DNA of 64,000 bases, taken from Clostridia bacterium. GTDB taxonomy: Bacteria; Acidobacteriota; Terriglobia; Terriglobales; Acidobacteriaceae. Position numbers and translations under genes: made by a program. Under the pieces are notes generated by a model. That model was not told the DNA's origin. It saw only the letters and a list, made by a program, of their open reading frames with translations, and did not search any database. The DNA lies in contig DATMYA010000071.1 of assembly GCA_035561135.1 (NCBI GenBank), positions 62,001 through 126,000 of the forward strand. Reading direction: 5' to 3'. Positions 43,043 to 46,737 of the stretch are shown here, in pieces. Each line of letters begins with the position of its first letter. Position 1 is the first letter of the stretch.

Positions 43043-44179
43043 TTAAGTCTTCTGAGAACGTCCGCGCCTTGCTTTATCTGCATCCTCGGCGAGGTCGCGC
43101 ATGAGTGCGAAGAACGTCGGCGACTGCCCGATGAAGAGTCCCATCTCGGTCAGGAACGTCACAACGCCCATCGCAGCCCCCTTGGTTGCCGTCGGCCGCA
43201 CTATCGAGCATGCCGGAAGTTTTCGGCTCAGGAAAATGGTCGGCTCAGGCATGATCAAGTTCGTCTGGAATTCCTCTCCTCCAAACGGGGGCGCATTGAG
43301 ATCAGGGAATACAAGCGAAGGATCCTTCGGATCGGTCAACGCAGGTGCGTTGCCTGCTTTATCGCTCCAAGTCTGAAAATGCATAGCCTCGGTCGGACCA
43401 ATACTTAGGACAATTCGCAAAGCCTCCGGGTGGGTCACTCGTTGAGCGAGCTGAGGGTACAGACTGGTCCCGCCCTGCTCAATTGTTCCAAAGTGAAAAC
43501 CCGCAGTGTTAGCGATCGCTTGGATGTGATCCTTCGGAGTTAGGTCGTCATCGGTTCGAGGAATCGCCGGGTGTTGCCCCTCTTTTAGGCTTGGGACAGC
43601 TTGTTCGAAAGCGTCTCCGAAATCAGGGTTCTTGTTTCCGCTACGGTATCGTGTCCACCAGCTTGTGTCCACGCTGAGCTGCATGAGGTTCGTGAGCCGC
43701 CCAATTGTCTGAGCACCAGTCGCTTTGCTGCTCGGCAATGTACGAAACGCGTCAAGGTTAACAGTGTCCGCGCCCTTCGAAGCCAAATACGCATTGATAA
43801 AGACTTCATGGGTGAGTTCATCCTCGGTATTGTCGTGGATGTACTGTGCCATGTCTTCATCCAGAACGGCGAGAGCCTCTGTATATACCGGGTTCCCGCT
43901 TCCGCCGGGAACCTCACTGTCTTGAATCCCCCCGAGTTCGTTGTACTGCTGCCAGAGATCGGTTTCGAGGATTTCGGCTGCCGCCAGGAATCTTAGAATT
44001 GCCGCATCCCCCCGAACGAGCCGACCGCTCTTTTCTTCTGCACCTTCTTGAGCCAAGACAGATGAGCTATTGGCCAGAAGTCCTGCGCCCGCCGCGACCG
44101 CGCCAGCGGCGGCCAGTCCATTCTTCACAAAGGTGCGCCGATTCAGTGAGGTCTTCAAACCGGTCAATAGACTTTTCAT
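43043..44179 (-). CDS. Tat-exported ferritin-like domain protein
   Basis: 378 residues. The N-terminus has a twin-arginine signal (LNRRTFVKNGLAAAGAVAAGAGLL), so it is folded before export. The body is a ferritin-like helical bundle (Ferritin_2 type): AAILRFLAAAEILETDLWQQYNELGG, EDMAQYIHDNTEDELTHEVFINAYLASKG, and later GPTEAMHFQTWSDKAG, which supply the Glu/His ligands expected for a di-metal site. It ends with a hydrophobic stretch and a basic tail. Likely roles are metal storage or oxidoreduction in the periplasm. It is 150 nt upstream of nothing on its strand and is monocistronic. Confidence 0.82.
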   Translation of the reverse strand: MKSLLTGLKTSLNRRTFVKNGLAAAGAVAAGAGLLANSSSVLAQEGAEEKSGRLVRGDAAILRFLAAAEILETDLWQQYNELGGIQDSEVPGGSGNPVYTEALAVLDEDMAQYIHDNTEDELTHEVFINAYLASKGADTVNLDAFRTLPSSKATGAQTIGRLTNLMQLSVDTSWWTRYRSGNKNPDFGDAFEQAVPSLKEGQHPAIPRTDDDLTPKDHIQAIANTAGFHFGTIEQGGTSLYPQLAQRVTHPEALRIVLSIGPTEAMHFQTWSDKAGNAPALTDPKDPSLVFPDLNAPPFGGEEFQTNLIMPEPTIFLSRKLPACSIVRPTATKGAAMGVVTFLTEMGLFIGQSPTFFALMRDLAEDADKARRGRSQKT

Positions 44180-44379: not shown

Positions 44380-44892
44380 CTACTCCACATCGATGTCGGG
44401 ATTGCGACGGTCTTGGGGAGTCTTTCGCTTTGCGTCCTGTCCCGTACTGCGCTTCGCGGCCTTGGGTGCTCCGGCACTGAAACCGCCCCTGCGATTGGCG
44501 TCGAAATCCTTTGGAGGCTTCGGTAATTTCGCAAACTCGCCCTGCAACTGCGTACGGTCCTTTAGCACGATCTCGATCTGACTCTTGTAGGCTTTCACGG
44601 TCCCCTGAATTTTGATCTCCTTACCTTCCAGGTAGCGCACGTCGCCAACGTCTCGCATGTCGCTGGGAAACACCACGACGGTGAACGGGCACCCGCGATA
44701 GTCTTCGCAGAAATTGAGGAAGGTAACACCGCTCTCAACGCGGCTAACCTTCAGTACCTTTCCGCGAATGCAGACGGACTCGCCGAGGTGCGCTCCGGCG
44801 TGTTCGAAAGGGAAGCACTCGGCGGCGGCACTCGCGCCAAGGGTAAGCGCGACTGCCATCGCAGCAAGAGAGAGCCGAAATGTTCGTGTCAT
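44380..44892 (-). CDS. Exported OB-fold-like protein of unknown function
   Basis: 170 residues. Signal peptide MTRTFRLSLAAMAVALTLGASAAA, then an OB-fold-like domain (about 25-115) with HLGESVCIRGKVLKVSRVESGVTFLNFCEDYRGCPFTVVVF and LEGKEIKIQGTVKAYKSQIEIVLKD. Four cysteines could form disulfides. The last 45 residues are basic and disordered (KPPKDFDANRRGG, KAAKRSTGQDAKRK). The gene begins in an ATGA overlap with the AhpD-like selenoprotein gene, so the two are translationally coupled and may work together. Confidence 0.75.
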   Translation of the reverse strand: MTRTFRLSLAAMAVALTLGASAAAECFPFEHAGAHLGESVCIRGKVLKVSRVESGVTFLNFCEDYRGCPFTVVVFPSDMRDVGDVRYLEGKEIKIQGTVKAYKSQIEIVLKDRTQLQGEFAKLPKPPKDFDANRRGGFSAGAPKAAKRSTGQDAKRKTPQDRRNPDIDVE

Positions 44893-45413
44893 TTCGTCGG
44901 TTCCATTTGAAGCGCGTTGTTGAACCGGTTGAAGTAGTTGAAAAGGCCTATGACGGCGGCGAGTTCAACGACCTGCCCTTCGTCGTAATGCGCGCAAAGC
45001 TCTGCCCAGAGGCGTTCGTCCACGTTGTTGGAATCGAGCGTCATGCGTTCGGCGAAGCGCAGCGCAATCTTCTCTTCGGGCAGGAAGTCCGATCGAGTCT
45101 CAAAGTCTGCCAGATTCTCCACCTGGTCGTGGGTATAACCGTGGCGCTCTGCCAGAGCGCTATGAGACGCCAGTCAATACTCGCACCCGTTGATTTGGCT
45201 GACGCGTACCGTGACCAGTTCCTTGAGCTTGGTGGCTACCGTGCCCGTATTCATCACGGTGCGGAAATGCGCAATCATGGTGCGTAGGTATTCCGGGCGG
45301 TGCGCCATCGTACGGAACATATTGGGTACGTTGCCGCGTTCCTTTAAGTACTGGTCATAGATATGCTTGGTCTCGCCACCCACGTCTGTGGGCTCGAGGC
45401 GTTTGATTCGCAT
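44889..45413 (-). CDS. AhpD-like / carboxymuconolactone decarboxylase family protein, predicted selenoprotein (CxxU, in-frame TGA)
   Basis: 174 residues if TGA at 45174-45176 is read as selenocysteine. The start is an ATG at 45413 with GGAG 5 nt upstream. The first 79 codons encode the family N-terminus (KHIYDQYLKERGNVPNMFRTMAHRPEYLRTM, ELVTVRVSQINGCEY). The frame then meets TGA and continues without shift as LASHSALAERHGYTHDQVENL and a full C-terminus (EEKIALRFAERMT, VVELAAVIGLFNYFNRFNNAL). In the family this site is CxxCxxxH, so here it reads Cys77-Glu-Tyr-Sec80-Leu-Ala-Ser-His84. Protein-coding character persists after the TGA and the true stop overlaps the next gene (ATGA). A hairpin suited to a bacterial SECIS follows. 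The alternative is a pseudogene with a nonsense change. Automated tools would call two fragments. Confidence 0.8.
45144..45160 (-). promoter_or_regulatory. Candidate bacterial SECIS hairpin
   Basis: On the minus strand, 14-30 nt after the TGA, GCGCTCT-GGC-AGAGCGC forms a 7-bp stem whose loop starts with G at nt 21. Bacterial SECIS elements are stem-loops inside the coding region just after UGA, with the apical loop roughly 16-37 nt downstream and a G at its start. A longer alternative fold pairs TGGCG with CGCCA and CTC with GAG, leaving one bulged U. Confidence 0.65.
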
Positions 45414-45582: not shown

Positions 45583-45930
45583 CTATTTAGCGAACGAGTT
45601 GATCGCAACCGCTTCGTCGTCCTTGATATCGAAGACGGTATAGAGCTTCGTGATCTGCAGGAGATCGTGAACCTTCTTCGTGAGGTTGAGCAACTTGAGT
45701 TCGCCGCCCTGGTTACGCACGCTGGTAAAAGCGCTGACCAGTTCGCCAATGCCGGAGCTGTCGATATAGGTGACGTCGCCAAGGTTCAGAAGAATCTTCT
45801 TCGTACCATGGCCAACCACGTCACGGATGGTGTCGCGTAGGACCACGCTACCCTCGCCGAGGGTAATGCGCCCGCTCAGGTCCACGATTGTGACACCGTC
45901 AATCTGCCGTGTGCTTGCTTTCATTGTCAC
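45583..45930 (-). CDS. Anti-anti-sigma factor (STAS domain, RsbV/SpoIIAA-like)
   Basis: 115 residues, GTG start at 45930 with GGAGG 7 nt upstream (an ATG follows at 45924). It is a single STAS domain: TRQIDGVTIVDLSGRITLGEGS, the phosphorylation site YIDSSGIGELV (Ser58/Ser59), and GELKLLNLTKKVHDLLQITKL. In partner-switching systems the unphosphorylated form binds the anti-sigma kinase and frees its target. The kinase gene is directly upstream and overlaps its start, which fits this scheme. No sigma factor or PP2C phosphatase is in the window. Confidence 0.92.
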   Translation of the reverse strand: MTMKASTRQIDGVTIVDLSGRITLGEGSVVLRDTIRDVVGHGTKKILLNLGDVTYIDSSGIGELVSAFTSVRNQGGELKLLNLTKKVHDLLQITKLYTVFDIKDDEAVAINSFAK

Positions 45931-46373
45931 TGAGAAGCCTCCTTGCCATCGCTGTCCGCTCCGCGGACGTGCTTAATAAGTGTTACTTCCGTTCCGGGCT
46001 CCATGTTCCGGAAGCGCACCTCGTCCATGAATGCCCGAATGAGAAAGATACCGCGTCCTGACTGCTTGAGCAGGTTCTCCGGCGCGAGCGGATCGGGGAT
46101 GTCCAAAGCATCGAGCCCCTGGCCCTCGTCGCGGACAGAGATGGTCAGCGCCTGCGCACTGGTTTCAAAGACCACAGTGACACGCTTTTTCGGATCATAG
46201 GCATTGCCGTGCAGGACAGCATTGACTGCCGCTTCCCGCACTGCCATCGCGATTCGCTGTACTTCTTCTTCGTCGAATCCCGCTTTGACTCCGAAGTTCT
46301 GTGCCATCTCCTCCGCCTTGTTCACGCTTTCCAAGGTGGAGTCGAGCGTGTATGAGACCCTGGTTGCATTCAT
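45927..46373 (-). CDS. Serine kinase / anti-sigma factor (RsbW-like)
   Basis: 148 residues from the ATG at 46373. A stand-alone HATPase domain of the GHKL type: VQRIAMAVREAAVNAVLHGN (N box), ISVRDEGQGLDALDIPDP (G1) and LLKQSGRGIFLIRAFMDEVRF (G2). It should phosphorylate the STAS protein encoded by the overlapping downstream gene and otherwise hold a sigma factor or another partner inactive. The target is not in the window. Confidence 0.9.
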   Translation of the reverse strand: MNATRVSYTLDSTLESVNKAEEMAQNFGVKAGFDEEEVQRIAMAVREAAVNAVLHGNAYDPKKRVTVVFETSAQALTISVRDEGQGLDALDIPDPLAPENLLKQSGRGIFLIRAFMDEVRFRNMEPGTEVTLIKHVRGADSDGKEASQ

Positions 46374-46737
46374 CGTTTGGTTGGGTCGCCTGCACTTATG
46401 ACCGTTATAGCGCACGCGACACCGTGTCCTTCCGGGAATCCGGTAGTTTGCCCTTACGAGTGTGCAGATGTCAATGTGATCTCCTCGCTGCACTCTTAGA
46501 CAACGCGGGAGGCGCTACAGTTCCCACAATCTCGAATTGCCGACTTCAATCAGCTTAGCCTAAGTTGCCTCATCCCGTCCTGCAGAACCATTTGCACGAT
46601 ACTAAGTCCAGCAACTGTGAGCCCCAGGAAGGCAAACACTTCGCAATCTTTGATTTTGGGCGGTTCTGGTCTGGATTCTGGCGGGCCGTAGCATTATTCT
46701 CGGGGCTGTTCATCCAAGAAGCTGTATTCTCAATGTG
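46374..46737. other. Divergent intergenic region
   Basis: 364 nt between the rsbW-like gene (-) and the MgtE-N/CBS gene (+). It must hold both promoters. No convincing -10/-35 pair, repeat or small gene is recognised in it. Confidence 0.4.

Follow-up and report, generated by a model that had tools for sequence, protein, structure and literature searches.

A predicted AhpD-like selenoprotein with selenocysteine in the second position of its CxxC motif in an Acidobacteriota genome

Does a TGA codon that interrupts the reading frame of an AhpD-like gene end the protein, or is it read as selenocysteine (Sec)? The question is raised by a locus in the window, the stretch of 64,000 nucleotides of Acidobacteriota DNA that was analysed. 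AhpD-like proteins of COG2128 that feature a CxxU motif were introduced as a new selenoprotein family, represented by 27 sequences, in a 2005 study of the Sargasso Sea (PMC1088965), and an AhpD-like selenoprotein was also found in Alkaliphilus (PMC1794560). An ocean survey placed the AhpD-like proteins as the fourth largest selenoprotein family with 299 sequences (PMC2398784, AhpD-like 1), the family is also listed in PMC9312934, and TIGR01926 with a CxxU motif is included in a 2026 selenoprotein catalogue (PMC13188914). The premise of the original prediction for this locus, that AhpD-like proteins with CxxU are an established selenoprotein family, is therefore borne out by listings since 2005 (PMC1088965, PMC13188914).

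The reading frame and the selenocysteine machinery

The locus features the following elements:
44889..45413, minus strand: predicted selenoprotein gene, AhpD/CMD fold, TIGR01926 peroxidase-related family, 174 residues, with Sec as residue 80
45174..45176, minus strand: in-frame TGA, codon 80, predicted to be read as selenocysteine, at position two of the CxxC redox motif
45183..45185, minus strand: TGC, codon 77, partner cysteine in the CxxU motif
44889..44891, minus strand: TGA, ordinary stop of the gene, overlapping the ATG of the next gene

The gene starts at ATG 45413 and, except for the TGA at codon 80, its frame is open to 44891-44889, where the stop and the start of the downstream gene share an ATGA overlap (44892-44889). 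The motif around the internal TGA is C77-E-Y-U80-L-A-S-H84, in which the TGA takes the place of the second Cys of CxxCxxxH, as had been predicted. Standard ORF calling produces two fragments, 45413-45174 (79 aa) and 45122-44889 (77 aa), which is the split that the original prediction had expected of ordinary pipelines, and its coordinates for the frame, the TGA, the stop and the hairpin were all found to be correct when the sequence was read again.

The prediction also hinged on the presence of selB and tRNA-Sec in the genome, and both are found, together with selA and selD, in the assembly that contains the window (4.19 Mb in 95 contigs, with a completeness rating of 100%). The tRNA-Sec features a UCA anticodon and scores 64.2 bits against a cut-off of 47, in agreement with ARAGORN, and the scores are 566 bits for selA (cut-off 268), 379 bits for selB (cut-off 242) and 380 bits for selD (cut-off 125), with the four genes spread over three contigs. 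Judged by its genes, the organism should be able to make selenocysteine. The selD gene of the same genome (L130, 1501-1560) features an in-frame TGA (AAG-GCT-GCG-GGT-TGA-GCC-AGC-AAG-CTC, KAAGUASKL) with a stable stem past it, and appears to be a selenoprotein gene itself. In the 23 genomes that carry TGA forms, selB was detected above the cut-off in 21 and tRNA-Sec in 20; one or both are present in 22, and the remaining genome is a bin of 73% completeness. A single-contig genome with a Cys form (G017) has neither selB nor tRNA-Sec. The co-occurrence of TGA and selB is weak evidence by itself, because selB is common in the relatives (44 of 61).

The hairpin downstream of the UGA codon

One further element lies within the gene:
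45144..45160, minus strand: bacterial SECIS hairpin with a stem of 7 bp and the apical loop GGC (45153-45151)

The hairpin, GCGCUCU-GGC-AGAGCGC, begins 14 nt past the TGA and its loop lies 20 nt from the UGA. The published model of the bacterial SECIS element calls for a loop of 3–9 nt, a stem of 4–16 bp, a distance of 16–37 nt from the UGA, a G in the first two loop bases and a minimum free energy of −7.5 kcal/mol or lower (PMC13188914). The hairpin lies within all of these limits, with a loop of 3 nt, a stem of 7 bp, GG, 20 nt and an energy of −9.9 kcal/mol for the isolated hairpin. Which fold is favoured depends on the segment that is folded. A fold started 11 nt past the UGA has the SECIS hairpin as its minimum-energy structure; over 57 nt, with the UGA-flanking bases included, a competing structure other than the SECIS is favoured (−16.8 kcal/mol, z = −1.06), at an energy no better than that of shuffled sequence.

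The comparison of homologues is clearer. A stem of 7–8 pairs is found in 42 of the 43 distinct TGA homologues and in none of the 51 Cys homologues, in which there is never more than 1 pair at the site, and the GGC loop is found in all 43 of the distinct TGA homologues. When the peptide of the window was recoded with synonymous codons, at least 7 pairs formed at the hairpin site in 0.5% of trials, and across the TGA set recoding predicts the stem in 0.05 of 43 sequences, against the 42 of 43 that were seen. Compensatory changes on both sides are found in 5 of the 7 stem pairs; the covariation score is 0.328 compared with 0.168 for shuffled alignments, with none of 500 shuffles as high; the pairing is lost when the partners are slid by 1–3 columns; and RNAalifold recovers the same helix unaided. 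The SECIS assignment is considered settled because these comparative tests are positive, the plain 57-nt fold not being significant, and the 7-bp hairpin with a G-first loop that had been noticed in the sequence is confirmed. The sole TGA homologue without the conserved stem (L028, locus 1501-2022 on the minus strand, from a single-contig genome) features an alternative hairpin, CUGCC-AGUU-GGCAG, with a distance of 16 nt from UGA to loop. Residues 87-90 of the TGA forms are mostly L-A-R-R, so the stem appears to shape the protein sequence as well.

Conservation of codon 80 and the cysteine forms

Homologues were drawn from 60 relatives and from a wider scan of genomes that contributed 80 loci. 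The alignment, which had been proposed as a check on the internal TGA, determined that codon 80 is TGA, TGC or TGT. A TGA at codon 80 with no further internal stop is found in 53 homologous loci, a count that includes a few duplicates (one gene fetched twice), and close homologues that lack the TGA feature TGC or TGT at that codon. Other internal stops, which had been named as the sign of a pseudogene, were searched for in the close homologue set and none was found. Position 80 is U or C in 94 of 94 distinct close homologues, and position 77 is Cys in 63 of these and Thr in 31. The TGA carriers belong to Acidobacteriota and to four Bacillota (Geosporobacter, Anaerosolibacter, named strains). 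One in-frame TGA is also seen in distant homologues with 24–38% identity (L042, L043 and others), some of which share genomes with the close form, and the class may hold several subfamilies of AhpD-like selenoproteins side by side. Ratios of non-synonymous to synonymous change against six relatives are 0.26–0.47 before the TGA and 0.22–0.42 after it, which shows that both sides are under purifying selection and that no decay is under way past the TGA.

A tree was built from 99 homologues with the Sec/Cys column masked and was rooted at the midpoint. In this tree the close CxxC forms correspond to two replacements nested among the Sec forms, and the TxxC forms make up one clade with a support of 100/100 beside the larger CxxC group. 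Sec is most likely older than Cys in the clade, with two Sec-to-Cys replacements; this direction is likely and not proven, because the root is a midpoint root and some deep branches are weak. A TPYC motif in place of CxxC is a feature of one Acidobacteriota clade (L073, L075, L078, L080 and 27 other loci), in which the first Cys is gone and the second is kept, mirroring the TxxU of selenoprotein peroxiredoxins.

Fold, active site and competing readings

The read-through protein scores 93 bits against TIGR01926 ("peroxidase-related enzyme", cut-off 81.8) and matches the CMD family PF02627 with 57.7 bits (E = 1.2e-15). The best-scoring NCBIfam model, NF053654 (GroundWater_YciW YciW-related (seleno)protein), covers residues 2-170, nearly the full length, with 99.5 bits, however, its cut-off is 310 and the protein is not the same equivalog. 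The score against TIGR00777, the model for true AhpD, is 22.3 bits, below the cut-off of 191.95. The AlphaFold model has a mean pLDDT of 95.3 and its predicted fold matches 2prr, 6k40, 2pfx, 3c1l and 2oyo at a TM of ~0.9. The model features the all-helical fold and the E/C/(H,Y)/C/H relay (E65, C77, Y79, U80, H84) of the AhpD/CMD group. The description of the product as a thiol oxidoreductase is kept, whereas the alternative term of the original prediction, peroxiredoxin-type, is loose, as the fold is that of AhpD/CMD and not that of a peroxiredoxin.

The relay of M. tuberculosis AhpD consists of Glu118, Cys130, His132, Cys133 and His137, and that of P. aeruginosa PA0269 (2o4d) of Glu36, Cys48, Tyr50, Cys51 and His55 (PMC3141380). 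The spacing of Glu65, Cys77, Tyr79, Sec80 and His84 is identical to both, and these residues would be the counterparts of the AhpD relay in the order given. The three proteins share the pattern E-x11-C-x-[HY]-C-x3-H and the all-helical fold, PA0269 also features Tyr in the third relay place, and both known proteins feature Cys where the window's protein would feature Sec. The debrominase Bmp8 (6ohi/6ohj), which the structure titles describe as acting on brominated pyrroles, has the same fold as well.

The neighbouring genes are:
44380..44892, minus strand: gene immediately downstream, for an exported OB-fold-like protein in which four cysteines are invariant
43043-44179, minus strand: gene further downstream, past the OB gene, for a protein that has a Ferritin_2 domain and a Tat-like start (RRTFVKN)
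45583..45930, minus strand: upstream gene with a STAS domain (anti-anti-sigma type), conserved as a neighbour
45927..46493, minus strand: upstream gene with HATPase_c_2 (anti-sigma kinase type), likewise conserved as a neighbour

The STAS and HATPase_c_2 genes are found upstream in ~30 loci; the STAS gene is separated from the selenoprotein gene by a gap of 169 nt and is not clearly co-transcribed with it. The Ferritin_2-domain gene was not found next to the homologues in the loci that were retrieved. The OB protein consists of 170 residues with a signal-peptide-like start and invariant C26, C41, C62 and C68; no Pfam model scores above its cut-off, a sequence search for solved relatives found none, and its structural model is moderate (pLDDT 76.8). 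In the window's family (f1) the OB gene is widespread and adjoins the selenoprotein gene in 7 of 9 close Sec genomes. The link between the two is positional in this family and not obligate, because the OB gene also occurs by itself in other places.

The competing readings differ in how much of this evidence they can accommodate. A pseudogene or a sequencing error, in which the TGA arose from TGC or TGT by mutation or misreading and the product would be non-functional, accounts for a frame that is split by a TGA and for nothing else. Both are refuted by the conservation of the TGA at the same codon across the 53 loci, including those of Geosporobacter and Anaerosolibacter of Bacillota, and were rejected; the purifying selection that persists past the TGA, the covariation of the hairpin and the full Sec machinery in the genome add to the case against them, and such an origin is exceedingly improbable. 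It is also scarcely credible that the AhpD domain has been split into two genes of 79 aa and 77 aa, with the TGA as a true stop and a downstream GTG as the second start, although this is exactly what ordinary ORF calling yields. The second piece would begin at residue 98 and would miss residues 81-97, which include the invariant L81, H84 and G92. The Cys homologues are single, undivided proteins and TIGR01926 is passed by the read-through protein and by neither half alone, and the split was rejected on these grounds.

A third possibility accepts the selenoprotein and concerns its main reaction, which could be something other than peroxide reduction, for example a reductive dehalogenation, as with Bmp8, or an exchange of disulfides with the OB protein. 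Bmp8, named as a debrominase and not as a peroxidase, is a structural relative at a TM of ~0.85, however, its identity to the window's protein is only ~24%. In 13 distinct relatives, of which 10 are TGA forms and 3 are CxxC forms, the gene of the four-Cys OB protein comes directly after that of the AhpD-like protein, but the signal-peptide-like start of the OB protein, which the selenoprotein lacks, would place the two proteins in different compartments; furthermore, many genomes carry the OB gene elsewhere and without a close selenoprotein homologue, and order-level relatives that have the selenoprotein lack the OB gene. A main reaction of this kind is considered unlikely, and a peroxide as the main substrate is the moderately favoured alternative.

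On the evidence of its sequence, the locus almost certainly encodes an AhpD-like selenoprotein with Sec80 in its active site. SelB carrying Sec-tRNA-Sec would bind the hairpin with the GGC loop, so that selenocysteine is inserted at UGA codon 80 in place of termination, and the UGA at codon 175, uninvolved in Sec insertion, would end the protein. The product of the locus would thereby be a single thiol oxidoreductase with the AhpD/CMD fold and a Sec residue. Its Sec80 would attack the substrate, which is most likely a hydroperoxide. The selenenic acid that results would be resolved by Cys77 to a selenenylsulfide, which a thiol reductant would reopen. The homologues suggest that position 80 is the nucleophile and that position 77 is a dispensable resolving residue, because residue 77 is lost in some of them (TPYC) and residue 80 never is.

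The window's gene features each of the defining characters of AhpD-like CxxU selenoproteins that were tested: it shares with the COG2128/TIGR01926 family the CxxU motif, Sec in the second position and a SECIS element right past the UGA. It differs only in lineage (Acidobacteriota, with close Bacillota relatives), and its Cys-form relatives include one clade that, unlike the CxxU family, also lacks the first Cys. Well supported as it is, the gene adds an ordinary member to a family whose selenoproteins have been known since 2005, and it opens no new kind of biology. One gene takes the place of the split ORF call, a correction that extends to dozens of Acidobacteriota genomes, and the contrast in the hairpin between the Sec and Cys homologues is a good benchmark for SECIS prediction. 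It is conceivable, if rather doubtful, that the clade constitutes a functionally distinct selenoenzyme and not a general peroxidase, with ancestral Sec and two Cys replacements, one of which has a branch where the partner Cys became Thr; the natural series CxxU, CxxC and TxxC would then show how an enzyme adapts to the loss of selenium. Because this series occurs in one clade, natural variants are at hand for a study of the contribution of Sec to an enzyme of the AhpD fold.
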